The notes under the pieces were generated by a model that saw only the letters and a program-made list of their open reading frames with translations, searched no databases and was not told the origin of the DNA. The position numbers and the translations under genes are program-made. Positions 4,350-16,633 of a stretch of 64,000 nucleotides of DNA are shown here, one piece after another. The stretch comes from Myxococcus fulvus. GTDB taxonomy: Bacteria > Myxococcota > Myxococcia > Myxococcales > Myxococcaceae. The first letter of the stretch is position 1, and the number at the start of each line of letters is the position of its first letter. The stretch lies in assembly GCF_900111765.1 (NCBI RefSeq), contig NZ_FOIB01000001.1, positions 124,001 through 188,000 of the forward strand, written 5' to 3'.

Positions 4350-5375
4350 GTGCTGCCCGCCGTGAATTTCCCCATGCCTTTTGTATCGCGCTGCCATCCA
4401 GACCTGGAGGCCGCTCGACAGCGCAATCTCGAGTGGGCCCGAGAGGTCGGCCTGGTGGTCAACGAGGCGGACGCCCGTCGTCTGCTCCTCTGGGACATGG
4501 CCGGCATCTTCGCCTACTGGCTCCCCCGGGCTTCGAGGGAGGGGCTCGACCTGGCCATCGATACCATCACCGTCGGAGTCTTCCTCGAAGAGCACATGGA
4601 AGCCTCCATCGACAAGCCGCCCGAGTTCGTCCGGGACGCTTGCGCGGAGATGTTCGCCGTCATCGAGCCCGGGGGGCTTCAGACTCCGTCCACGGTCCTC
4701 TCCGCCGCGTTCGTCACCCTGTGGGCGCGCCTGTGCGAAGGGGCTCCGCTCGAATGGAAGCGGCGCGTCGCGCTGCATTGGCGCTGGTTCATCGACGCGT
4801 ACATCGAGGAGGCACGCTGGCGGGGAAGTCGCGTCCCCCAGACGCTGGAAGGCTACCTGAAGCTGCGCCGGGAATCCGGTTTCACCCATGTGATGGTCGA
4901 CATGTCCGAGCGAGCCAATGGCTTCACGCTCCCCGACAGGGTCCGGGACATCCCCAGCGTGGCGCGAATCATCACCCTGACGGTGGACATCGTCGACGTC
5001 ATGAACGACGTCTGCTCGCTCGAGAAGGAGCTCGCGCTCGGCGACGTTCACAACGTCGTGCTCGTCCTGCAACACGAGCGTGGCCTGTCGCAGGAGGCCG
5101 CCATCGCGGAGTCCTACGAGATGATGCGGCGCTGGTGCGACGAAATCATCCAGCTCGAGGCCCTCATCCCCCAGGACTGCGTCCGGCATGGGCTCTCCCA
5201 GGTGGAGACCGAAAACCTGCTCCACTTCGTCCGCGCCCTGAAGGAGGGCATCGGCGGACAGCCGGACTGGTACAGGACCTGTGGACGCTACGAGAACGCC
5301 TCGAATCCCAGGGCCGTGGCCGTCGGCACCACGAATCCGATGCGCCCCCTCCTCGTGACACCCGCGCATCCCTGA
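4350..5375 (+). CDS. Terpene synthase 1 (bacterial class I), atypical Asp-rich motif
   Basis: Class I terpene cyclase of the bacterial geosmin/2-methylisoborneol fold, 341 residues. The NSE metal-binding triad is intact (N219, S223, E227 in NDVCSLEKE), the pyrophosphate-sensing Arg (LRRESG, near 174) is present, and a C-terminal Arg-Tyr pair is at 313-314. The first metal motif, normally DDxx(D/E), reads EEHME at 80-84, with Glu at every acidic position. GTG at 4350 is chosen because of the strong AGGAGGAA upstream. It is more divergent than the other two synthases in the cluster, lacks their conserved NDLMRP tail (it has NPMRP), and is separated from them by the HMG-CoA reductase. Product not predictable; sesquiterpene size is a guess. 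Confidence 0.88.
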   Translation: MLPAVNFPMPFVSRCHPDLEAARQRNLEWAREVGLVVNEADARRLLLWDMAGIFAYWLPRASREGLDLAIDTITVGVFLEEHMEASIDKPPEFVRDACAEMFAVIEPGGLQTPSTVLSAAFVTLWARLCEGAPLEWKRRVALHWRWFIDAYIEEARWRGSRVPQTLEGYLKLRRESGFTHVMVDMSERANGFTLPDRVRDIPSVARIITLTVDIVDVMNDVCSLEKELALGDVHNVVLVLQHERGLSQEAAIAESYEMMRRWCDEIIQLEALIPQDCVRHGLSQVETENLLHFVRALKEGIGGQPDWYRTCGRYENASNPRAVAVGTTNPMRPLLVTPAHP

Positions 5376-5595
5376 CACCGATTCGCTTCACGGTGCGGGG
5401 GACATGCTGTCCCGCGTGCGGGCGATGTCTGGGTTCAGGTGCGGGCATTGACACATCAGACGTCGACTTGTTGTGGCCAGACATGTTCAAGAAATCATCT
5501 GCGAGACGTTGTCTGACTGGTTATTGTTTTGAAACCATGTCGCGGCGGCTCGCGAGTTGGTTCCCGGCAAAGAAATACATCGAGGATGAAACCCC
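5376..5595. promoter_or_regulatory. A+T-richer leader of the HMG-CoA reductase gene
   Basis: The 220 bp before the reductase are clearly poorer in G+C than their surroundings, especially 5440-5590. There is a TTGACA-like box (ATTGACACATC near 5448) and several AGAC/GTCT half-sites, including AGACGTTGTCT near 5503. I could not find a good -10 at correct spacing. The composition suggests an internal promoter for mvaA and the two downstream synthases. Confidence 0.4.
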
Positions 5596-6933
5596 ATGGG
5601 CATCGATATCAGCCGTAGCATCTTTTCGGGTTTCCACCGGCTCTCGCTGGAGGAGCGCTGTGCGCGGGTCGCGGCCGAGCTGGGCCTGAGCGACGCGGAG
5701 CTGGCCGCGCTCACCGGCGAGGAGGGCCTGGGCGCGGAGAAGGCGTACTCGATGGTGGAGAACGCGCTGGGCTACTTCAGCCTGCCGCTGGGGCTGGGAC
5801 TCCACCTCCGGGTGAACGGGCGCGCGTACGTGGCGCCGATGGTCATCGAGGAGGCCTCCGTCATCGCGGCCGTGTCGTTCGCAGCGAAGCTGGTCGGCTC
5901 GGCGGGGGGCTTCATCGCGGAGGCGGAGCCGTCGCTGATGGTGGGGCAGATACAGCTCACCCGTTACGGCGACCCGGCGTGGGCCCAGGAGCACATCCTC
6001 GCCGCGCGCTCGGAGCTGCTGGACCTGGCCAACGCGCTGCAGCCCCAGTTGGTGCGCCGGGGCGGCGGCGCGAAGGACCTGGAGGTCCGCCTCCTCGACG
6101 CGCCCGAGGGCCCCCAGGGCGAGCCGCTCCTGGTGGTGCACTTCCTCATCGACACCCAGGAGGCCATGGGCGCCAACCTCATCAACACCATGATGGAGGG
6201 CGTGGCGCCCCGAATCGAGGAGCTCACGGGAGGCCGGGTCTTCCTGCGCATCCTCTCCAACCTCGCGGACCGGAGGCTGGCGCGCTCGCGGTGTGTCATC
6301 CCGGAGGAGCTGCTCTCCGACTACGGCATGCCGGGAGCGGACATCGCGGAGGGCATCGTCCAGGCGAGCCGCTTCGCGCAGGCCGACCCCTACCGCGCGG
6401 CGACGCACAACAAGGGCATCATGAACGGCATCGACGCCATCGCGCTCGCCACGGGCCAGGACTGGCGCGCCATCGAGGCGGGGGCGCATGCGTACGCGGC
6501 CCGCACGGGCCGGTACGGGCCGCTGTCCACGTGGAAGCGGGAGGACGGGAACCTGGTGGGCGAAATCGAGCTGCCGCTCGCGCTGGGCACGGTGGGCGGG
6601 CCGCTGCTGGTGCACCCCGGGGTGAAGGCCGCGTTCAAGGTGCTCGGGCAGCCGGGGGCCCGGGAGCTGGCGTGCCTGTTCGCCTCGGTGGGGCTGGCGC
6701 AGAACCTGGCGGCGGTGCGGGCCCTGGGCTCGGTGGGCATCCAGAAGGGCCACATGGCGTTGCACGCGCGCTCGGTGGCGGTGAGCGCGGGCACGCCGCC
6801 CGAGTGGGTGGAGACCGTCGCCGCGCGGCTCGTCCAGCAAGGCGAGGTGAAGGTGGACCGGGCCCGGCGCGTGCTCGGGGAGCTGAAGGGCGGCGTGCTG
6901 CCGTTCGTGTCGCCGCACAACGAGGACACGTGA
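5596..6933 (+). CDS. mvaA: HMG-CoA reductase, class II (degradative-type)
   Basis: Interconverts HMG-CoA and mevalonate. Length 445 matches class II enzymes such as Pseudomonas mevalonii HMGR (about 430). Catalytic residues are in place: Glu in IEEASV (85-86), the nucleotide/substrate loop EAMGAN (about 179-184), Lys263 in HNKGIMNG, Asp279 in ATGQDW, and the general acid His376 in KGHMALHA; GTVGG at 321-325 is the family signature. ATG at 5596 follows GAGGATGAAACCCC. Class II enzymes act in mevalonate breakdown in Pseudomonas but in biosynthesis in Gram-positive bacteria; lying between terpene synthases, 15 bp before the second, it most plausibly raises mevalonate supply for isoprenoids. Cofactor preference cannot be read reliably. 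Confidence 0.95.
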   Translation: MGIDISRSIFSGFHRLSLEERCARVAAELGLSDAELAALTGEEGLGAEKAYSMVENALGYFSLPLGLGLHLRVNGRAYVAPMVIEEASVIAAVSFAAKLVGSAGGFIAEAEPSLMVGQIQLTRYGDPAWAQEHILAARSELLDLANALQPQLVRRGGGAKDLEVRLLDAPEGPQGEPLLVVHFLIDTQEAMGANLINTMMEGVAPRIEELTGGRVFLRILSNLADRRLARSRCVIPEELLSDYGMPGADIAEGIVQASRFAQADPYRAATHNKGIMNGIDAIALATGQDWRAIEAGAHAYAARTGRYGPLSTWKREDGNLVGEIELPLALGTVGGPLLVHPGVKAAFKVLGQPGARELACLFASVGLAQNLAAVRALGSVGIQKGHMALHARSVAVSAGTPPEWVETVAARLVQQGEVKVDRARRVLGELKGGVLPFVSPHNEDT

Positions 6934-6948
6934 CAGCAGGAGGCCGCC

Positions 6949-7962
6949 ATGAATGTGGCCGTGAACTTTCCCATGCCCTTCGTGTCGCTCTGCAGCCCGG
7001 ACCGGGACGCCGCGCGACAGCGCAACTTCGACTGGGCCCGCAGGTTCGGTCTGGTGACCCATGACGCCGACGCGCGTCGCTATCGCGCGTGGGACATCGC
7101 GGACCTCACGGCCCGTTGGCTTCCCCATGCCTCGGGCGCCGCGCTCGACCTGGGCCTCGACGCCATCATCGTCGCGACCCTCATCGAGGAGCAGTTCGAC
7201 GGGGCCCAGGACCTGTCCCCTGAAAAGACGCATGAGGACTGTGACTCGTTGCTCGCCGTCCTCCAGGAGGAAGGTGCGGGCCCGGTCCCCGACGGAGTCC
7301 TCGCCACCGCGCTGGCGGACGTGTGGAAGCGCACCTGCCGGGGCGCCTCGCTCGAGTGGCGGCGGCGCGCGGCGCGGCACTGGCGCTGCTACATCGAGGC
7401 GTTTCCCGAGGAGGCCTGGTGGCGGCAGAGCGATGGCGCCCAGACGCGCGACGGCTATCTCGAGCTGCGCCGCAAGTCGGGCGCCGTCTACCTGATGACG
7501 GACCTGACGGAGAAGGTGAATGGCTTCGAGACCACCGAGCGGGCCCGCCAGGTCCCCGGCGTGCGGCGGTTGCTCGACCTGACCGCGGACCTCATCGACA
7601 CCATGAACGACGTCTGCTCGGTCGAGAAGGAGCTCATGCGTGGCGACGTGCACAACCTCGTGCTGGTGCTGCAGGCCGAGCGTGGCTGGTCCCGGGAGAG
7701 GGCCCTGGCGGAGGCCCACGACGACATGCGGCGCTGGTGCAAGGAGTTCCTCGAAATCGAAGCCGGCCTCGCGGAGGTCTGTGCCCGGCACCTGCTCTCC
7801 CGCGAGGAGACCAACGACCTGCTTCGCCTCACCCAGGGGCTCAAGGAGAGCATCGGCGGCCACCCGGACTGGTACCGCGTCACCGGGCGGTATGACCGAC
7901 TGATTCCGAAGGGAGAGCCCTCGTACCCCAACGACCTGATGCGCCCTGTCGCCAGGAGTTGA
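6949..7962 (+). CDS. Terpene synthase 2 (bacterial class I)
   Basis: 337-residue class I terpene cyclase, closely related to the next gene and more distantly to the synthase at 4350. The NSE triad is N220, S224, E228 (NDVCSVEKE), the sensor Arg lies in LELRRKSG (near 175), and a C-terminal GRY matches the family's RY pair. The Asp-rich motif reads EEQFD (80-84), with Glu in the first two positions where most enzymes have Asp. CAGGAGG precedes the start. It follows mvaA by 15 bp and precedes the third synthase by 3 bp, so mvaA and both synthases are surely one transcript. Confidence 0.92.
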   Translation: MNVAVNFPMPFVSLCSPDRDAARQRNFDWARRFGLVTHDADARRYRAWDIADLTARWLPHASGAALDLGLDAIIVATLIEEQFDGAQDLSPEKTHEDCDSLLAVLQEEGAGPVPDGVLATALADVWKRTCRGASLEWRRRAARHWRCYIEAFPEEAWWRQSDGAQTRDGYLELRRKSGAVYLMTDLTEKVNGFETTERARQVPGVRRLLDLTADLIDTMNDVCSVEKELMRGDVHNLVLVLQAERGWSRERALAEAHDDMRRWCKEFLEIEAGLAEVCARHLLSREETNDLLRLTQGLKESIGGHPDWYRVTGRYDRLIPKGEPSYPNDLMRPVARS

Positions 7963-7965
7963 GCC

Positions 7966-9006
7966 ATGTCCGCCTCGCTTGCCGCCGTGCCTCGCGTCGT
8001 GGCGTTCCCCATCCCCTTCGCGTCCCGCTGCAGTCCGGACCGGGACGCCGCTCGCCAGCGCAACCTCGACTGGGCCCGCGCGTCCGGCCTGGTGGCCAAT
8101 GAAGTCGACGAGCGTCGCTATGGCTCGTGGGACATCGCCGACCTCGCCGCCCGGTGGCTTCCCCGCGCGTCGGGCGCCGAGCTCGACCTGGCGGTCGACG
8201 CCATCATCGTCGGAACCCTCATCGACGAGCAGTTCGACGGCGCCCGGGACGTTCCCCCCGAGCAGGTCCGCGTGGACTGCGAGGCGCTGCTCGACGTCCT
8301 CCAGGTGGAGGGGCGGCCCCCGTCACCCGTCGGGGTCCTCGCCACCGCGCTGGCCGACGTGTGGGAGCGCACCTGTCGCGGGGCCTCGCTCGAGTGGCGG
8401 CGGCGCGCCGCGCGGCATTGGCGATGGTTCATCGAGGCATTTCCCGAAGAGGCCCGGTGGCGGCAGGGCTCCGCGCGACTGACGCGTGACCGCTTCCTCG
8501 AGCTGCGCCGCAAGTCCGGCCTCGTCTACATGATGATGGACCTCACGGAGAAGGCGAACGGCTTCGAGACGACGGACCGGGCCCGACAGGTCCCCGGGGT
8601 GCAGCGGTTGCTCGTCCTGACCGCGGACCTCGTCGACACCATGAACGACGTCTGCTCCGTCGAGAAGGAGCTCTCACGCGGTGACGTGCACAACCTCGTC
8701 CTGGTCCAGCAGGCCGAGCATGGCGGGTCCCGTGAGAGGGCCGTGGCGGAGATCCACGACAGCATGCGGCGCTGGTGCGAGGAGTTCATCCAGCTCGCAG
8801 CCGGCCTCCCGGAGGCCTGCGCCCGGGAGCAGCTCCCCCGCGCGGAGACCGACAACCTGCTTCGCCTCGTCCAGGGCCTCGAGGAGAACCTCGGCGGCCA
8901 CCCGGACTGGTATCGGACCACCCGGCGCTATGAGGGACTGATTCCGAGGGGAGAGGCCGCGTACGCCAGCGACCTGATGCGCCCGGTGGACCGGGTCTCG
9001 CGCTGA
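7966..9006 (+). CDS. Terpene synthase 3 (bacterial class I)
   Basis: 346-residue class I terpene cyclase, apparently a tandem duplicate of the preceding gene (shared blocks such as RQVPGVQRLL, the NSE region, and the DLMRPV tail). Its motifs are the most canonical of the three: DEQFD at 87-91, NSE triad N227, S231, E235, sensor Arg in RRKSG, and an RRY near the C-terminus. The start is preceded by AGGAG within the end of the upstream gene; only GCC separates stop and start. Product unknown. Confidence 0.93.
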   Translation: MSASLAAVPRVVAFPIPFASRCSPDRDAARQRNLDWARASGLVANEVDERRYGSWDIADLAARWLPRASGAELDLAVDAIIVGTLIDEQFDGARDVPPEQVRVDCEALLDVLQVEGRPPSPVGVLATALADVWERTCRGASLEWRRRAARHWRWFIEAFPEEARWRQGSARLTRDRFLELRRKSGLVYMMMDLTEKANGFETTDRARQVPGVQRLLVLTADLVDTMNDVCSVEKELSRGDVHNLVLVQQAEHGGSRERAVAEIHDSMRRWCEEFIQLAAGLPEACAREQLPRAETDNLLRLVQGLEENLGGHPDWYRTTRRYEGLIPRGEAAYASDLMRPVDRVSR

Positions 9007-9091
9007 CGCCCGCGGCTCCGGGTTCAAGCCGCTGTGCGTCGTGTCGGGTGGTGGCTGGTTGCCTCCGGCGCTCCGTGATAGCGATTGCGGC

Positions 9092-11305
9092 GTGCCCCGC
9101 TCCCGGCTCGCCGTCGCCCTGGAACCGTATCCACTGCGCCACCAGCTGGAGGAGGCGGACTGCGGGCCCGCGTGTCTGGAGATGATTTCGGCGTATCACG
9201 GCGCCACGCACTCGCTCGCCGCGCTCAAGGCGCTCTCCCACGTCCAGACGGTGGGCACCTCGCTGCCCGACCTCGCCAGCGCCGCGGAGAAGGTCGGCTT
9301 CAAGGTCCGTGGCTTCCACGTCGAGGACCCCACGGACCTCGAGGACGAGGAGGGCCAGGCGCTCCTCCCCGGCATCGCGCACTGGGATGACCACCACTTC
9401 GTCGTCCTCTACGCCGTCACCCCGAAGGAGGCCGTCGTCGGGGACCCGGAGCAGGGGCTGCGGCGCATCCCGCGCGCGAAGCTCGGCGAGCACTGGGACG
9501 GAATCCTCCTCTCGCTTGCGCCCACCGAGGCCCTCTTCCGTCCCGTCCCCACCGCGCCCGTCACGTCCCGCCGCTTCGGCGCGCTGAGACGCTTCGGACG
9601 CGGCCTGCTGCGCTACCGCCTGCTGCTGTTCCAGGTGTTCGTCACCACGCTGCTGCTCCAGGCGCTCGCGCTCGCCCAGCCCCTGCTCATCCAGGGGCTC
9701 GTGGACAAGGCCGTGGGCGGCCGGGACGTCTCCCTGCTCACCGCCGTGGGCGTGGGGCTCGCCGTGCTGCTCGTCGCGCAAATCGCGGTGTCCATCGCGC
9801 GCGGCGCGGGCCTCTTCCTGTTGTCCCGGGGGTTCTCCGCGCTGCTGCTCGCGCAGTTCTGGCGGCGCCTGTTGTCGCTGCCGGTGACGTTCTTCGCGCG
9901 CCGTCACCGGGGGGACCTGCTCAAGCGCATCGAGGACCACCAGCGCATCCGTCGCATCCTCCAGGGCGCGTCCGTGTCCGTGCTGTTGGACCTGGTGATG
10001 CTCGTGGGCTACGGCGCCGTGCTCTTCCTCTACGACCGCGCCGTCTTCGCCCTCTTCGCGGGTGGGGCCGCGGTGTACGCGGTGTGGACGCTCTTGCTGA
10101 TGCCGCGCCGGACGGTGCTGGACCACCAGCGCTTCCGCGTCGCGGCCGAGGCCAGCCGCCTGGAGATGCAGATGCTCGGCGGCATCCAGACGCTCAAGGC
10201 CTGCGGCGCCGAGCGACAGGCCCGCACGCGCTGGGAGAAGCTCCAGGCCCGAGAGGCCGAGGCCGCGCGGCGCATCTGGCTGCACGACACCGTGCACACC
10301 TCCGGCGCGCAGTTGGTCAATCAAGCCGTGTCCATGGGCATCCTCGTCTACGAGGCGCACCTGGTCCTCGAGGGCCGGCTCACGCTGGGACAGATGGTGG
10401 CCACGCTCGCGATTCTCGGCCTCGCGCTCGCGCCCATGCAGAACCTGGTGATGTTCATCCACCAGCTCCAGGACGTGGTCATCTCCCTGCGCCGCGTGGA
10501 CATCGTCTACGAGTCCACGCCCGAGCTGCGCGACGACAGCGCGCAAGGCACGGGCGCCCTCACCCACGCGCCCGAGCTGCGCCTGGACCACGTCACCTTC
10601 CGCTACGGCTCCCCCAACGAGTCGCCCGTGCTGGACGACGTGAGCTTCACGCTGCCCGCGGGGAAGATGACGGCCATCGTTGGCCGCTCCGGCGCGGGCA
10701 AGACGACGCTCACCCAGGTCCTCTACGGCCTGTATCGCCCCGAGCAGGGCCAGGTGCTCTACGACGGCCAGCCGCTGGAGACCTTCGACCCGGTGGCGCT
10801 GCGCCGCTCGGTGGCCTTCGTCTTCCAGAAGACCGACATCTTCGACGGCACCCTCGCGGAGAACATCGCCCTGGGCGACGACACGCCGGACGCGGAAAGG
10901 CTGCTGCACGCCGCGCGCACCGCGTGCCTGGATGAGCTGCTCGCGCTGCCCAACGGCCTCAAGACGCGCATCGGTGAAGCGGGCGTGCGGCTGTCCGGAG
11001 GCGAGGAGCAGCGGCTCCAGCTCGCGCGCGCCATCTATCGCAATCCGCGCGTGCTCTTCCTCGACGAGGCCACCAGCCACCTGGACGCGTCCCTGGAGCG
11101 CGCGATTACCGAGGCCCTGCAGCGCGAGGCCGCCGGACGCACGCTCGTCGTGGTGGCCCACCGGCTGTCCACCGTGCGCCGCGCGGACAAGATTGTCGTG
11201 CTCGACAAGGGCCGCGTCGTCGAGGAGGGCACGCATGACGAGCTGGTGCTCATCCCCGGCGGCCGCTACCGCGCGCTCGTCGAGAACCAGATGGAGCAGC
11301 GATGA
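9092..11305 (+). CDS. C39-peptidase ABC exporter for a double-glycine leader peptide
   Basis: Bacteriocin-type exporter, about 737 residues. An N-terminal C39 protease domain has Gln18 and Cys24 (Q-x5-CGPAC), His102 (HHFVVL) and Asp118 (VGDPEQG), the complete catalytic set. A six-helix transmembrane domain (about 160-440) follows, then an ATPase with Walker A GRSGAGKTT, signature LSGGEEQ and Walker B VLFLDEATSHLD. Such proteins cut leader peptides after Gly-Gly and export the core across the inner membrane. The frame is open from GTG at 9041; I prefer GTG at 9092 because it puts the catalytic Cys at the usual distance, but neither start has a good ribosome binding site. The neighbouring graspetide genes supply a fitting substrate. 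No HlyD-like adaptor follows. Confidence 0.9.
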   Translation: MPRSRLAVALEPYPLRHQLEEADCGPACLEMISAYHGATHSLAALKALSHVQTVGTSLPDLASAAEKVGFKVRGFHVEDPTDLEDEEGQALLPGIAHWDDHHFVVLYAVTPKEAVVGDPEQGLRRIPRAKLGEHWDGILLSLAPTEALFRPVPTAPVTSRRFGALRRFGRGLLRYRLLLFQVFVTTLLLQALALAQPLLIQGLVDKAVGGRDVSLLTAVGVGLAVLLVAQIAVSIARGAGLFLLSRGFSALLLAQFWRRLLSLPVTFFARRHRGDLLKRIEDHQRIRRILQGASVSVLLDLVMLVGYGAVLFLYDRAVFALFAGGAAVYAVWTLLLMPRRTVLDHQRFRVAAEASRLEMQMLGGIQTLKACGAERQARTRWEKLQAREAEAARRIWLHDTVHTSGAQLVNQAVSMGILVYEAHLVLEGRLTLGQMVATLAILGLALAPMQNLVMFIHQLQDVVISLRRVDIVYESTPELRDDSAQGTGALTHAPELRLDHVTFRYGSPNESPVLDDVSFTLPAGKMTAIVGRSGAGKTTLTQVLYGLYRPEQGQVLYDGQPLETFDPVALRRSVAFVFQKTDIFDGTLAENIALGDDTPDAERLLHAARTACLDELLALPNGLKTRIGEAGVRLSGGEEQRLQLARAIYRNPRVLFLDEATSHLDASLERAITEALQREAAGRTLVVVAHRLSTVRRADKIVVLDKGRVVEEGTHDELVLIPGGRYRALVENQMEQR

Positions 11306-11481
11306 CCTCCCCCCGTGACGACGAGGACCTGGACGCGGACCCGGCGATGACGGAGGAGCTGCGCGCGGTGATGCACCCGCGCCCCCACCGGCCGCTCCTG
11401 TTCACCGCCGCGCTGGTGTTGCTGCTCGGCGCGCTGGCGTGGGGGGCCTCGCGCACCGTGCTCGCCACGCTGTGGCGATAG
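11302..11481 (+). CDS. Small single-helix membrane protein coupled to the exporter
   Basis: 59-residue ORF whose ATG overlaps the stop of the C39 exporter (ATGA at 11302-11305), so it is almost certainly translated. The first 30 residues are acidic and hydrophilic (MTSPRDDEDLDADPAMTEEL), followed by one predicted helix (about 33-52, RPLLFTAALVLLLGALAW) and a short basic tail. It could be an exporter accessory, a remnant of the HlyD-type membrane-fusion subunit that usually partners C39 exporters, or an immunity protein. It has no Gly-Gly site and does not look like a second precursor. It ends seven bases before the convergent ATP-grasp gene ends. Confidence 0.65.
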   Translation: MTSPRDDEDLDADPAMTEELRAVMHPRPHRPLLFTAALVLLLGALAWGASRTVLATLWR

Positions 11482-11487
11482 CGCGTC

Positions 11488-12426
11488 TCAGCCGCCCCGC
11501 GCGTGCTTCGCCAGCGTCCGCGTGAAGTGCCCGGCGACGTCCGTGCCTCCTCCCGCGTCGAAGCCCAGGAACATGGGCGAGCCGTTCAGCTCCAGGAACT
11601 TCAGCTCGCCATCCAGGCCCCGCTTGAGGTCCAGCCCCGTCCAGCGCAGACCGAGCACCTCGCACGCCCTCACGCACTGCCGCGCCACCGCGTCCGGCAG
11701 CACCACCTGCTCGATGCGCTCCTCGTTCTGTCGGAAGTCCAGCGCGGAGGTGACGATGTGCAGGCTCGCGATGACCTCGCCATCCAGCACGAAGACGCGG
11801 ATGTCCTCGCCCGGGAGCAGCTCCTGGAAGGTGACGGGGGACGCGGCCAGCGCCGCGAGCCGCGCGTCGGTGAGGTCCTCCGGCAGGAGCTCCTGCGTGG
11901 CGGCCCCGCCCATGACGGGCTTGTAGGCCACGCGTCCGCCCGAGGCGAAGCGGCGCACCGCCTCCGGCTCGTTCGTCCACAGCGTGCGAGGCACCGGCAG
12001 CCCCGCTGCCGCCAGCGCGCTCAGCTGCACGGGCTTGTGCAGCACCCAGTCCGCCGAGGGCGGGTTGTACAGCGGCACCCCCAAGCGCTCCCACCGGCCG
12101 AGCACTCCCAACAAGAACGTGGCCTTCTCACGGAAGACGGTGAGCGTGGTGCGCCAGTCCTCCGCCATGGCCTCCGAGGCGTCGACCCCGTGCGCCAGGG
12201 GATGCGTGTGCAGCCCGCGCAGGTACGCCGCGGCGGGACGCCCCAGCTCGCGCCCGTCCACGCGGATGCCGGCCAGGTCCTCGGTCAGCGACATCCGCGT
12301 CTCGTCGGGGAACGTCAGCGTGTCCACCACGACGCTCGCCACGCCCAGGGCCTCGAGCCTCCGACCCACCTCCTGGATGTGGATGTCCTCCCGGGAGCCC
12401 ACCAGTGCCACCACGCCAGTCGTCAT
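11488..12426 (-). CDS. Graspetide-type ATP-grasp ligase (MvdC/MvdD-like)
   Basis: 312-residue ATP-grasp enzyme of the RiPP omega-ester/amide ligase family. Seen: a pre-ATP-grasp domain starting MTTGVVALVGSRED, the segment YNPPSADWVLHKPVQLSAL (Asn and Lys conserved in this family), YKPVMGG (ATP-binding Lys), FQELLPGEDIRV, TGLDLKRG and the metal-binding FLELNGSPMFLGFD. These are the diagnostic blocks of microviridin/plesiocin maturases, which phosphorylate Glu/Asp side chains of a precursor and close them onto Thr/Ser or Lys. ATG at 12426 matches the usual N-terminus; a GTG at 12474, four bases after the precursor stop, would add 16 residues. It lies directly downstream of the precursor gene on the same strand. 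Confidence 0.92.
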   Translation of the reverse strand: MTTGVVALVGSREDIHIQEVGRRLEALGVASVVVDTLTFPDETRMSLTEDLAGIRVDGRELGRPAAAYLRGLHTHPLAHGVDASEAMAEDWRTTLTVFREKATFLLGVLGRWERLGVPLYNPPSADWVLHKPVQLSALAAAGLPVPRTLWTNEPEAVRRFASGGRVAYKPVMGGAATQELLPEDLTDARLAALAASPVTFQELLPGEDIRVFVLDGEVIASLHIVTSALDFRQNEERIEQVVLPDAVARQCVRACEVLGLRWTGLDLKRGLDGELKFLELNGSPMFLGFDAGGGTDVAGHFTRTLAKHARGG

Positions 12427-12478
12427 GGACGCGAAGCGAAGCAGATGCCCGGTGGGAGCTCCAGGGACGCGCACCGCG

Positions 12479-12640
12479 TCAATCGCGAGTGCCGCTGTCC
12501 GGCGGCTTCGACTCCTCGCCCACCGCCATCGTGGTGATGGGCTTGGGGCCGCCGGGCTTTCCCGTCCCGGGCGGCTTCGGCCTCTCCCCCAGCTCCGTGA
12601 TGAACAGCTCCCGTCGGCGATGAATGTCTTTGCGCGTCAT
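12479..12640 (-). CDS. Graspetide precursor peptide, single TTxxxxEE core (plesiocin type)
   Basis: 53-residue ORF immediately upstream of the ATP-grasp ligase. GGAGGG stands six bases before the ATG. The N-terminal half is a charged helical leader (DIHRRRELFITELGERPKP), then a Pro/Gly linker ending in Gly30-Gly31, then a short C-terminal core with TTMAVGEE at 36-43 and a hydrophilic tail. Plesiocin, the group 2 graspetide from the myxobacterium Plesiocystis pacifica, is defined by repeats of TTxxxxEE whose Thr and Glu side chains are joined by the ligase; here there is exactly one copy. Gly30-Gly31 is a plausible cut site for the C39 exporter, although position -4 is Lys rather than the usual hydrophobic residue. 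Too short for default gene callers. Confidence 0.88.
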   Translation of the reverse strand: MTRKDIHRRRELFITELGERPKPPGTGKPGGPKPITTMAVGEESKPPDSGTRD

Positions 12641-12758
12641 GGTGTGCCCTCCACGGACATTCCACTTCGACTCCGAACCGCCGCGCCAGGGGCGGTTTGA
12701 CTATGGGTCAGCCTTTCGCGGAAAGTACTTATTCCCCGCATTTTCCGAGGAGTCGGGA
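12641..12758. promoter_or_regulatory. Divergent promoter region of graspetide operon and M43 protease
   Basis: 118 bp between the divergent precursor (start 12640) and metalloprotease (start 12759). It holds an inverted repeat AACCGCC/GGCGGTT (12676-12682 and 12691-12697) and an A+T-richer patch with the palindrome AAGTACTT (12723-12730). These are candidate operator and promoter elements; no clear -35/-10 pair was found. Confidence 0.45.
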
Positions 12759-13670
12759 ATGTCCAGTTTCGTCGCGCGTCGCAGTGGCCGTTTCTCCGTG
12801 GTCATCGGTGTCCTGGCGCTGCTGTCCGGCTGTTCGAGCGCCCCGGAGTCCCAGCAGCCCGAGCCCACGCCTCCGGCGGCCGAGGAGCAGCCCGGTCAGC
12901 AGGCCATCGAGGGGCGCGGCTGCGGCGTGAACCCGACGCACGAGGAGATGGCGGACATGGAGCGCCGCTTCCAGTCGGAGCGCGCGGTGTCGGCCTTCGC
13001 GCGGCCGGTCGGCTCGGTGAACATCCCCGTCTACTTCCATGTCATCAACAAGGGCACGGGCGTGGCGAACGGCGACATCACCACGGCGATGATTACCAAC
13101 CAGATTGCGGTGCTGAACGCCGCGTACGCGAGCACGCCGTTCAAGTTCACGCTGACGGCGACGGACCGCACGACGAACACCACCTGGTACAACCTGGGCT
13201 CGGGCTCGTCCGCGGAGCGCGCCATGAAGACGGCGCTGCGCAAGGGCGGCAAGAACGCGCTCAACATCTACTCGGCGAACCTGAGCGGCGGCCTGTTGGG
13301 CTGGGCGACGTTCCCCTCCAGCTACGCCAGCAACCCGACGATGGACGGCGTGGTGATTCTGTACTCCAGCGTGCCGGGCGGCAGCGCGTCGCCGTACAAC
13401 CTGGGTGACACGGGCACGCACGAGGTCGGCCATTGGCTGGGCCTGTACCACACGTTCCAGGGCGGCTGCTCCACCACGAACGACTCCGTCAGCGACACGC
13501 CGGCGGAGGCCTCGCCCGCGTACGGCTGCCCCACGGGTCGCAACACCTGCTCCGCCGCGGGCAACGACCCCATCACCAACTTCATGGACTACACGGACGA
13601 CTCCTGCATGAACAGCTTCACCACGGGCCAGGCGAACCGCATGGACTCGCAGGCGCTGACCTACCGCTGA
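12759..13670 (+). CDS. Secreted M43 (pappalysin-type) zinc metalloprotease, lipoprotein
   Basis: 303-residue predicted lipoprotein protease. The signal peptide ends in lipobox LLSGC, giving lipidated Cys23. The zinc site is HEVGHWLGLYH (HExxHxxGxxH of metzincins) and a downstream Met-turn NFMDYTDD is present; the spacing and Cys-rich segment between them (GGCSTT, YGCPTGRNTC, DDSCM) fit the M43 pappalysin/cytophagalysin family. ATG at 12759 is chosen for CGAGGAGTCGGG just upstream and because it begins the signal peptide. It is likely an outer-membrane or surface protease used in predation or nutrient acquisition, by inference. A terminator hairpin follows. Confidence 0.9.
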   Translation: MSSFVARRSGRFSVVIGVLALLSGCSSAPESQQPEPTPPAAEEQPGQQAIEGRGCGVNPTHEEMADMERRFQSERAVSAFARPVGSVNIPVYFHVINKGTGVANGDITTAMITNQIAVLNAAYASTPFKFTLTATDRTTNTTWYNLGSGSSAERAMKTALRKGGKNALNIYSANLSGGLLGWATFPSSYASNPTMDGVVILYSSVPGGSASPYNLGDTGTHEVGHWLGLYHTFQGGCSTTNDSVSDTPAEASPAYGCPTGRNTCSAAGNDPITNFMDYTDDSCMNSFTTGQANRMDSQALTYR

Positions 13671-13691
13671 GCGCGGACGTTTTGAAGTCTC

Positions 13692-13723
13692 GACGCCGGG
13701 GCCCTGCACATGGCCCCGGCGTC
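13692..13723 (+). terminator. Intrinsic terminator after the M43 protease gene
   Basis: GACGCCGGGGCC (13692-13703) and GGCCCCGGCGTC (13712-13723) form a perfect twelve-base-pair stem with an eight-base loop, followed by GTCGTTTTC. It lies 21 bases after the protease stop. Confidence 0.8.
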
Positions 13724-13771
13724 GTCGTTTTCAGTGACATCCTGTCGGCACCTGGGCTCCAATCCGCGCCC

Positions 13772-15067
13772 ATGTCCGCGCTGACACTGAGAGAAGACCG
13801 CTTCCTGGATGTGCTCCGCCGTCTCATCGCCCTGACGCCCCGGTTGCAGAACAACCTGGAGGCGGGGCTGGTGCCCCAGGAGCGGCTGGCCGCGCAGGTG
13901 GTGCTGGACACGCTGGCGCCGCACATCGCCAGTGGCTTCATCCACGCGGAGGCCCTCGCGTCCCAGGGCAACGAGTCGCGCGTCAGCCTGGTGCTCACCG
14001 TGAATGGCACGGGCGAGGGCGCGGTGGGCTTCGTGGGCGCGCACTTCGACGTCGTTCCGGCGGACCAGGTCGCCGAGGGCTGGGAGCGCAGCCCCTTCGA
14101 GCTGTGGGAGGGCCCGGACGGCGTGCTCTACGGGCGCGGCGTCACCGACTGCCTGGGCCACGTCGCGGTGGCCACGGACCTGCTCGCGCAGCTGGCCGAG
14201 GCCAACGTGCGCCCGCGCCGCACGCTCAAGGTCGTGCTCATCGCCAACGAGGAGGCGGGGGATTTGCCCGGCCTGGGCCTGAGCTACGTGGCCGAGCAGG
14301 GCCGGCTGAAGGATTTGGTGGGCCAGCCGGTGTACTGGTTGGACAGCGCCAACTTCGGCCCCACCGTGGGCACCGCGGGCAACAGCGTGTGGGAGCTGAA
14401 GGTGACGGGCGTGGGGGGCCACTCGGGCATGCCGCAGAACTGCGTGAACGCGCTGGAGCTGGCCATGGCCGCGTCGCTGGAGCTGGGCCGCTGGTTCCAC
14501 GCGCGCTACCCGCCCAACGAGGACGAGAAGCGCTGGGGCTTCCTCGCCACCTCCAGCCTCAAGGCCACCGTGATGGAAGCGGCCAACACCAAGGAGAACA
14601 AGATTCCCGGCGACGTGGTGGTGAAGGGCGATGTCCGCCTGACGCCCTTCCACGACATGGCCGAGGTGCGGCGCGCCACCGAGGACTTCGTGCGGGAGCT
14701 GGACGCGCGGCTGGAGCGCGGCGACGTCCCCGCCGGCTGGCCTCGCACGCGCACCGAGGACGGGCGGCGCGGCCGGCTCTCCTTGCGCTTCCAGGGCGGC
14801 GGCACCGAGGGCATCGCCTGCCGGCTGGACTCGCCCGGCCTCCAGGCACTGAAGGACGCGATGAAGGCCGTGCGCGGCGTGGACGCGCAGCCCTTCTCGC
14901 TCACCGGCTCGCTGCCCCTGGTGAGGGACCTGCAACGCCAGGGCTGCGACGTGCAGATAACGGGCTTCGGGGACATGAAGTACTACCACGCGCCGAACGA
15001 GCAGGCGCACCTGAAGGACTTCCGGCAGGGCTTCTCCATCCTGTGGGAGCTGCTCGCGCGACTGTGA
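13772..15067 (+). CDS. M20-family metallohydrolase (ArgE/DapE-like deacylase or peptidase)
   Basis: 431-residue zinc-dependent M20 enzyme. Metal-ligand segments are GAHFDVVPADQ (His and following Asp), GRGVTDCLGH and NEEAGD, with the dimerisation domain in between (VTGVGGHSGMPQN) and a late His in KYYHAPNEQA. These are the standard blocks of acetylornithine deacetylase, succinyl-diaminopimelate desuccinylase and carboxypeptidase G2. The substrate cannot be decided. The start at 13772 is the first Met of the conserved region; no strong ribosome binding site. The following aminotransferase lies 79 bp downstream and may share its transcript. Confidence 0.87.
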   Translation: MSALTLREDRFLDVLRRLIALTPRLQNNLEAGLVPQERLAAQVVLDTLAPHIASGFIHAEALASQGNESRVSLVLTVNGTGEGAVGFVGAHFDVVPADQVAEGWERSPFELWEGPDGVLYGRGVTDCLGHVAVATDLLAQLAEANVRPRRTLKVVLIANEEAGDLPGLGLSYVAEQGRLKDLVGQPVYWLDSANFGPTVGTAGNSVWELKVTGVGGHSGMPQNCVNALELAMAASLELGRWFHARYPPNEDEKRWGFLATSSLKATVMEAANTKENKIPGDVVVKGDVRLTPFHDMAEVRRATEDFVRELDARLERGDVPAGWPRTRTEDGRRGRLSLRFQGGGTEGIACRLDSPGLQALKDAMKAVRGVDAQPFSLTGSLPLVRDLQRQGCDVQITGFGDMKYYHAPNEQAHLKDFRQGFSILWELLARL

Positions 15068-15146
15068 GGGTGCCCCTGGGGGCCCCACGCGATACCGTGA
15101 CGCCCAACCGCTCGGAGCCCCCGAGCCCGCGAGGAGTGGTGACGCC

Positions 15147-16307
15147 GTGAGAGAACTGCTGATGATTCCGGGGCCGGTGGAGTTCGAGGAAGAGGTGCTG
15201 CGCGCCCTGGGCGCCCCCTCGCTCAGCCACACGGACCCGGCCTTCATCGTCACCTTCGGTCGGGCGCTGCAGCGGCTGCGCGAGGTGTGCCTCGCCCCTT
15301 CCGCGCAGCCCTTCGTCGTCTCCGGCTCCGGCACCCTGGCCATGGAGATGGCCGTGGCCAACCTGGTGGAGCCCGGCGACGCGGCCCTCGTGGTGAACAC
15401 CGGTTACTTCAGTGACCGGATGGCGAAGATTCTCGAGCGGCACGGCGCGAAGGTGACGCACGTGCGCGCCTCCCCGGGCGACGCGCCCACGGTGGAGGAG
15501 GTGAAGGCGCGGCTGGAGCGCGGCGGCTTCAAGGTGATGACGGTCACCCACGTGGACACGTCCACGGGCGTGCTGGCGCCGGTGGAGGGGCTGGTGAAGG
15601 CCGCGCGGGCGCTCGGCGTGCTGTCGGTGGTGGACGGCGTCTGCGCCACCGCGGGCGAGGTGTTCCACCAGGACGCGTGGGGCGCGGACGTGTACCTGAC
15701 GGCCAGCCAGAAGGCGGTGGGCGTGCCGCCCGGCCTCGCGCTCGTCACCGCGAGCCCCCAGGCGATGGCGGCGTGGAAGGGCCGCAAGGCGCCGGTGGCC
15801 AGCGTGTACTCGGACTGGGCGGAGTGGCTGCCCATCATGGAGGCCTACGCGGGCGGCAAGCCGTCGTACTTCGCCACGCCGCCCGTCAACCTCGTCAGCG
15901 CGCTGGACGTGAGCCTGGGGCAGATTCTGGCCGAGGGCATGGAGGCGCGCTTCTCCCGTCACCAGCGTCTGGCCCGCGCCTTCCGCGCCGCGTGGAGCGC
16001 GCTGGGGCTGCGCCTCTTGCCCGTGTCGGAGGCGGTGACGGCGAACACGCTCAGCGCCGTCTACTACCCGGAGGGCGTGGACGCCTCGCTCGTCGGACGC
16101 GTGAAGGCCGAGGGCGTGGTGATTGCCGGCGGGCTCCACCCGGACCTCAAGACGCGCTACTTCCGCGTGGGCCACATGAACCGCGTGGGCCCCGGCGACG
16201 TGCTCGTCACCGTGGGCGCCGTGGAGCGCGCCCTGCTCGCCGCCGGTCACCGGGCGGAGGCCGGCGCGGGCCTGCGCGCCGCCGAGTCCGTGCTCGCCGC
16301 CCGCTGA
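15147..16307 (+). CDS. Class V aminotransferase (alanine-glyoxylate/serine-pyruvate type)
   Basis: 386-residue PLP enzyme. It begins with the family's typical IPGPVEF segment; the cofactor pocket includes SGSGTLAMEMA, the Asp that pairs with the pyridine nitrogen in VVDGVCATAGE, and the Schiff-base Lys in TASQKAVGVPPG. C-terminal RVGHMNRVGPGDV matches the substrate-carboxylate Arg region. Family members transaminate alanine or serine with glyoxylate or pyruvate; some are cysteine or phosphonate enzymes. GTG at 15147 has GAGGAG upstream. Confidence 0.88.
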   Translation: MRELLMIPGPVEFEEEVLRALGAPSLSHTDPAFIVTFGRALQRLREVCLAPSAQPFVVSGSGTLAMEMAVANLVEPGDAALVVNTGYFSDRMAKILERHGAKVTHVRASPGDAPTVEEVKARLERGGFKVMTVTHVDTSTGVLAPVEGLVKAARALGVLSVVDGVCATAGEVFHQDAWGADVYLTASQKAVGVPPGLALVTASPQAMAAWKGRKAPVASVYSDWAEWLPIMEAYAGGKPSYFATPPVNLVSALDVSLGQILAEGMEARFSRHQRLARAFRAAWSALGLRLLPVSEAVTANTLSAVYYPEGVDASLVGRVKAEGVVIAGGLHPDLKTRYFRVGHMNRVGPGDVLVTVGAVERALLAAGHRAEAGAGLRAAESVLAAR

Positions 16308-16633
16308 CCCGCGCGCCTCGGAAGTCGGCCCTCGCCGCCCGCGGACGCCCCGGGCACCCCTCATCCCCGCACCTCCCAGGTCCCCCGCACCCCGGGGACC
16401 TCCCGGCTCGTGGCCTCCGAGAGGTCTATGTGCCTGGAATCCGGACGTTTCGTACGCTGGCGGAAGCCTGGCCCGGACCCCGGGGCCATCTCGAACCATT
16501 CGACAGGGGTAGAAAAATATGAGAGGGTTGGTACCTAGGAAGTGGGGGGAATCCGGCGAACACAGAAATACCTGAGCGAACGCCGGACGTGTCCCCTGAG
16601 CCGAGGCAGTGCGAGTCCCTCGGGGAGACGACC
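16308..16633. other. 326-bp gap without gene
   Basis: A C-rich stretch after the aminotransferase gene (16310-16420) is followed by an A+T-richer patch at 16495-16570 (AAAAATATGAGAGGG) that probably carries the promoter of the DUF2378 gene. No RNA or repeat recognised. Confidence 0.4.

Follow-up and report, generated by a model that had tools for sequence, protein, structure and literature searches.

A group 2 graspetide locus of Myxococcus fulvus whose C39 exporter may serve precursors encoded elsewhere in the genome

We describe a group 2 graspetide system in Myxococcus fulvus in which one ligase would act on two pools of precursors and the exporter encoded beside the ligase would serve a remote pool with Gly-Gly (GG) leaders; we put the probability of this reading at about 0.7. 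With somewhat less confidence, we favor the fuller version, in which the product of the linked, GG-less precursor bypasses the exporter, between one and four remote GG precursors rich in Cys use it, and the same ligase modifies both. In the proposed scheme, the ligase would bind an LF(I/V)x(D/E)L leader motif and tie two Thr to two Glu residues of each TTxxxxEE core, forming two side-chain esters, as plesiocin suggests; in plesiocin there are two esters per repeat (in the available parts of PMC12291112 and PMC9484694). The first pool would be the linked 53-amino-acid (aa) precursor, whose leader seems to have lost its site for C39 cleavage. The product of this precursor would be independent of the exporter and would be matured or kept via another route, for which another exporter, a general protease, or an intracellular role are candidates. 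The second pool would be the remote precursor, which the C39-ABC exporter of the ligase locus would cleave behind its GG and export, and the exporter would be kept or lost along with the remote precursor genes.

Gene content of the locus and its ligase

The window analyzed here is a 64,000-nucleotide stretch of a 10.8-Mb Myxococcus genome. Four open reading frames (ORFs) were confirmed at positions 9041 to 12640, where an exporter and a 59-aa protein on the plus strand converge on a ligase and a 53-aa precursor on the minus strand. No Rfam match was found at positions 6500 to 16500. Scans of positions 8800 to 13000 returned no promoter and one terminator-like site, within the exporter gene, which is about the number expected by chance.

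The ligase gene (11488..12474, minus strand) encodes a RimK-like ATP-grasp protein (Pfam/NCBIfam) that also matches the GRASP_SAV_5884, MvdC, and MvdD models, each below the curated cutoff. Its best match among solved structures was 7drm (phmmer, E = 1.1e-94 over residues 16 to 319), which is PsnB, the plesiocin ligase, according to the available text of PMC10452190. The second-best solved match, the microviridin-type ligase 5ig9, had an E value of 1e-9. The plesiocin-type ligase proposed in the first-pass annotation was upheld by this result, and the protein groups with a RiPP enzyme (PsnB) rather than with non-RiPP ATP-grasp enzymes. Because similarity to PsnB and to most orthologs starts near residues 16 to 22, translation more likely begins at the ATG at 12426. 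At E ≤ 1e-55 the ligase was detected in 26 of 195 genomes of the phylum, all in one family, and 17 of 27 Myxococcus genomes carry it; at E ≤ 1e-30, 60 of 145 genomes of the order had a match, mostly to distant ligases of about 35% identity.

The exporter gene (9041..11305, plus strand) encodes Peptidase_C39, ABC_membrane, and ABC_tran domains (Pfam), and its closest NCBIfam model, NHLM_micro_ABC1, matched below the cutoff. A convergent C39-peptidase ABC exporter with an intact catalytic site had been predicted, and both points held: Q, C, H, and D, at what we take to be the positions of the C39 site, are present in 18 of 18 aligned exporters. By these domains and residues the protein is a C39 (PCAT) exporter. 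The first-pass start at 9092 is a plausible later GTG. Downstream, the gene for the 59-aa membrane protein (11302..11481, plus strand) overlaps the 3' end of the exporter gene by 4 bases, a translational coupling in agreement with the coupled small membrane protein reported before, and the encoded protein has one hydrophobic stretch near residues 32 to 49. At E ≤ 1e-150, 17 exporter orthologs were found in 16 of 96 family genomes, all 16 of them ligase bearing. Sixteen of the 17 converge on the ligase, and the gene for the small membrane protein stands in between; the seventeenth, in G047, lies away from the ligase of that genome and comes with a GG precursor of its own (L084). The 59-aa protein stands beside all 16 ligase-convergent exporters and was not recognized behind the remote exporter of G047. 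It is a possible exporter partner.

An M43 metalloprotease gene at 12759 to 13670 was considered as a cluster neighbor encoding a leader peptidase or a target, and was rejected as incidental. The gene lies next to the cluster, in one of two orientations (5/5 A1 genomes and 6/7 A2 genomes). The adjacency is regarded as incidental because M43, M20, and aminotransferase genes occur together without the cluster in all six ligase-less Myxococcus loci fetched (L078 to L083), and because no M43 match at E ≤ 1e-30 was found in the five exporter-less genomes that retain the linked precursor.

The linked precursor and its leader

The linked precursor gene (12479..12640, minus strand) lies upstream of the ligase gene. 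The 53-aa product carries the leader motif LFITEL at residues 12 to 17, which resembles the ligase-recognition motif, followed by a Pro/Gly-rich linker and the single core T36-T37-MAVG-E42-E43. The 53-residue precursor with a TTxxxxEE core noted earlier is thus present, as TTMAVGEE, and is conserved in close relatives within Myxococcus. Residues L12, F13, T36, T37, E42, and E43 are invariant in an alignment of 23 rows, and the LF(I/V)x(D/E)L motif is common to related precursors. This motif, the TTxxxxEE core of the ligase-adjacent precursor, and a PsnB-like ATP-grasp ligase (by phmmer to 7drm) are the marks of graspetide group 2; as judged from its predicted proteins, the locus is a group 2 (plesiocin-type) graspetide system. 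The several core repeats per precursor of plesiocin proper were not found, and each of the 47 precursors collected across the family (27 GG and 20 non-GG) has a single core. The layout had been called potentially new for its convergent exporter and single-core precursor. With convergence in 16 of 17 exporter orthologs and single cores throughout, that suggestion could not be sustained.

A precursor with a TTMxVGEE core adjoins the ligase in 15 of the 17 ligase-bearing Myxococcus genomes, and the pN/pS ratio of the eight-residue linked core is about 0.16 (five genome pairs, few substitutions). Because of this adjacency and this ratio, the position of the linked precursor beside the ligase is more than chance. 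These observations also bear on whether the GG-less linked gene is a decaying copy, with the remote precursor alone mattering, which we regard as extremely unlikely. Decay would fit the loss of the linked precursor from 2 of the 17 genomes (G098 and G108, where none was found near the ligase and the only profile match is remote) and the pN/pS of the linked leader, 0.67 against 0.12 for the more constrained remote leader, values drawn from small substitution counts and overlapping genome pairs. However, the linked core is conserved in the other 15 genomes, its pN/pS is low, and in five genomes the linked precursor is the only one found. For the remote core, pN/pS is 0.27, a value derived from very few changes.

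The first-pass annotation had the exporter cutting the linked leader at Gly30-Gly31 and exporting a single-core graspetide. The position of the cut needs correction in any case: the cut made by C39 enzymes falls behind the second Gly, and PCAT substrates are marked by GG, GA, or GS together with hydrophobic residues upstream, at -4, -7, and -12 (as set out in the available text of PMC10885120). Even with cleavage placed after Gly31, we consider this model very unlikely. The exporter gene is physically linked to the precursor gene, its C39 site is intact, and a GG does precede the linked core. However, residues -4, -7, and -12 from this GG are K, G, and R, none of them hydrophobic, and the GG stands in the wrong register: at the GG position of the LF-motif register, the window precursor has K22-P23. 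Moreover, 2 of the 15 linked Myxococcus precursors have GG, GA, or GS before the core, and the other 13 have none there. The leader score was -14.1 at the linked GG30-31 compared with 44.6 for the remote precursor of the same genome, in a scoring that used 13 hand-typed leaders, the remote leader itself among them, and covered 11 of these 15 linked precursors. The distribution of the genes also argues against cleavage of the linked leader, since five Myxococcus genomes retain the ligase and the linked precursor without the exporter, two (G098 and G108) have the ligase, exporter, and remote precursor and no linked precursor, and the presence of the exporter matches, genome for genome, that of a remote precursor whose leader is canonical for C39.

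In the related genus g3, the in-cluster precursors carry a GG site in the LF register in five of five cases (LFVQDLARIEGG and similar). Because of these precursors, the C39 site seems to be ancestral and to have eroded in the linked Myxococcus gene. What remains of the register might still permit export of both products, the remote one after the canonical cut and the linked one either intact or after a cut at a noncanonical place. In the linked precursor, L12, E16, and L17 still fit the C39 register, the linked precursors as a set keep L at -12 and L or W at -7, and 10 genomes have the exporter linked to the GG-less precursor. Nevertheless, the retained residues are also part of the presumed ligase-binding motif, the same residues are retained in the five exporter-less genomes, and -4, -2, and -1 are not retained; we judge export of both products to be unlikely. 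Judging from the leaders, the remote precursor is the likelier exporter substrate of the two.

Remote precursors and the distribution of the exporter

The remote precursor of the window genome (G000:C14:55367-55540) is 57 aa long. Its leader reads LFVKDLARIHGG and its core TTQACCEEKNDPCC, and it is encoded on another contig, no less than about 190 kb away from the ligase as reckoned from contig ends. Residues -4, -7, and -12 from its GG are I, L, and L, with a further L at -15, as in C39 substrates. All 12 exporter-bearing Myxococcus genomes encode such precursors away from the ligase, between one and four each, and their leaders are of the LFVKDLARIHGG type; their cores are TTxACCEE or TTLACGEE, one core to each precursor, and are Cys rich, unlike the linked precursor. 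No GG precursor was found in the other 15 Myxococcus genomes with either of two profiles: A1, built from linked precursors without the Myxococcus remote ones and run on 145 genomes, and A2, which includes remote precursors (19 rows for 27 GG precursors). The searches scored the best 46 or 69 precursor candidates and the best 11 exporter candidates per genome. Strong nonlinked matches to profile A1 had E values of 1e-20 to 1e-8. Weaker matches (E = 1e-5 to 1e-3) mostly adjoin the distant ligases (35% identity) that other genomes encode.

Neither a ligase nor a C39 domain was found in the remote-precursor loci L117 to L132 (9 to 13 kb each). A second graspetide ligase for the remote precursor in its own genome was also considered and rejected; the sole other match there is RimK-like, with 30% identity. 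In G104 and G109, whose assemblies place ligase and remote precursor on a single contig, the two are separated by 0.66 to 0.71 Mb (site I) or about 1.5 Mb (site II). Site I consists of an upstream gene, in some genomes ArsA-like genes, the precursor, a CBS-domain gene, and a Rieske gene (CBS and Rieske by Pfam). These flanks enclose a precursor at all 11 occupied loci compared; the contig-end locus L131 also shares the site I flanking genes. Among the 15 exporter-less Myxococcus genomes, 12 were compared (5 ligase bearing, 7 not), and all 12 have the upstream and CBS genes, with no GG precursor found between or near them.

Across the family, the exporter and the GG-register precursors occur together. 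Of the 26 ligase-bearing genomes, 16 have both and 10 have neither, and among all 96 family genomes the exporter ortholog and a GG-register precursor were found in the same 16. Five further family genomes have EGK or EGD leaders and no exporter. The association gave a Fisher P value of 2e-7, which is only descriptive because the genomes are related and the test ignores kinship. The signal rests on few independent losses on the ligase tree, namely, those in five Myxococcus genomes (G100, G103, G107, G115, and G118), four genus g8 genomes, and G076, all of which have the ligase without an exporter ortholog. As the ligase tree, which is midpoint rooted and has some weak forks, nests the five genomes within Myxococcus, loss of the exporter appears to be the simpler reading for them. 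The exporter adjoins the ligase and the linked precursor in 10 Myxococcus genomes, and because it has stayed there, some tie between the exporter and these genes is suggested.

Relation to known graspetide systems

The system resembles that of plesiocin (PsnA2/PsnB, group 2) in its single PsnB-homologous ligase, LF(I/V)x(D/E)L leader, and TTxxxxEE core. It differs in having one core where plesiocin has four repeats, a linked leader without a GG in the C39 register, and a second, remote, Cys-rich precursor. A smaller group 2 peptide, Gra-5, with one donor-acceptor set fewer than plesiocin, has been made (available text of PMC9576775). Plesiocin and microviridins inhibit proteases, as an extract of PMC13097080 states; for the products predicted here, protease inhibition is only an analogy.

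One enzyme with several substrates, some of them unlinked, is also seen in the RiPP synthetase ProcM of the prochlorosins, which has many precursors, some encoded away from the enzyme gene. ProcM belongs to another enzyme class, however, and the substrates here fall into GG and GG-less pools, with exporter presence following one of them.

C39-type exporters of group 2 have already been reported, and the remote precursor is the new part. In the available portions of the two surveys concerned, group 2 is among the graspetide groups for which co-occurrence with an NHLM-type transporter is high (PMC13097080), C39-ABC tops the table of ATP-grasp-associated families, and precursor candidates are limited to the first and second neighbors of the ligase (PMC8939145). 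The present locus shares the ligase and C39 exporter with the clusters described in those portions but differs from them in that its exporter tracks a precursor outside the cluster. Our literature search, with most subscription journals outside its scope, returned no report of remote graspetide precursors and, among the matches listed for graspetides with Myxococcus, nothing on the subject.

Graspetide mining usually seeks precursors beside the ligase, whereas the precursor that matches the exporter here is encoded elsewhere, and ligase-adjacent searches can miss a second, remote product. If the proposed reading is true, cluster-only mining would assign the wrong substrate to the exporter, and for group 2 the tally of products and the assignment of exporters would both be incomplete. 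The system would also offer natural tests of one ligase taking two leader types and of exporter loss following the loss of a cleavage site.

Remote precursors in Myxococcus genomes

Beyond the precursor linked to its ligase, the source genome encodes a second graspetide precursor on another contig (G000:C14:55367-55540; positions 6368-6541 of fetched locus L117), with a CBS-domain gene on one side and an unnamed gene on the other. Neither a ligase nor a C39 domain was detected in the 13 kb fetched around it. Four other Myxococcus genomes (G114, G109, G104, and G095) each carry three or four remote graspetide precursors with a C39-type GG leader, distributed over two sites. The first site, which is flanked by CBS-domain and Rieske genes (loci L123, L125, L127, and L129), holds two or three of these precursors in tandem; the second corresponds to loci L122, L124, L126, and L128.

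Genes near the exporter and ligase

All 16 exporters convergent with the ligase were accompanied by the 59-aa coupled membrane protein (11302-11481 in the window), for which no Pfam or NCBIfam match was found. Directly upstream of the exporter lie three tandem terpene synthase genes (4359-9006) that are ~50 to 73% alike; no terpene synthase appeared among the matches listed for 26 neighbour regions (L037-L062). At 12759-16307, the M43 metalloprotease gene is grouped with genes for an M20-type peptidase and an aminotransferase; this neighbourhood was also present in Myxococcus genomes without the ligase. In the A2 genomes, one of two groups in which an M43 gene adjoins the cluster (in 6 of 7 A2 genomes), the M43 gene is oppositely oriented (~54% identity).

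Plesiocin-like and distant relatives

At a deltaproteobacterial MAG locus (L036), a ligase (50% identical) occurs together with a plesiocin-like precursor (5557-5919) with three TTxxxxEE motifs, one STILGGEE motif, and the leader LFIEDLGQVQGG; the C39 exporter there is co-directional (36%). More distant ligases showed 33 to 40% identity (e.g., L064-L076), and several were adjoined by weak TTxxxxEE matches on the opposite strand. In genome G135, eight weak core matches fall within ~550 bases (C100:8113-8664), a region that likely encodes a many-repeat precursor.
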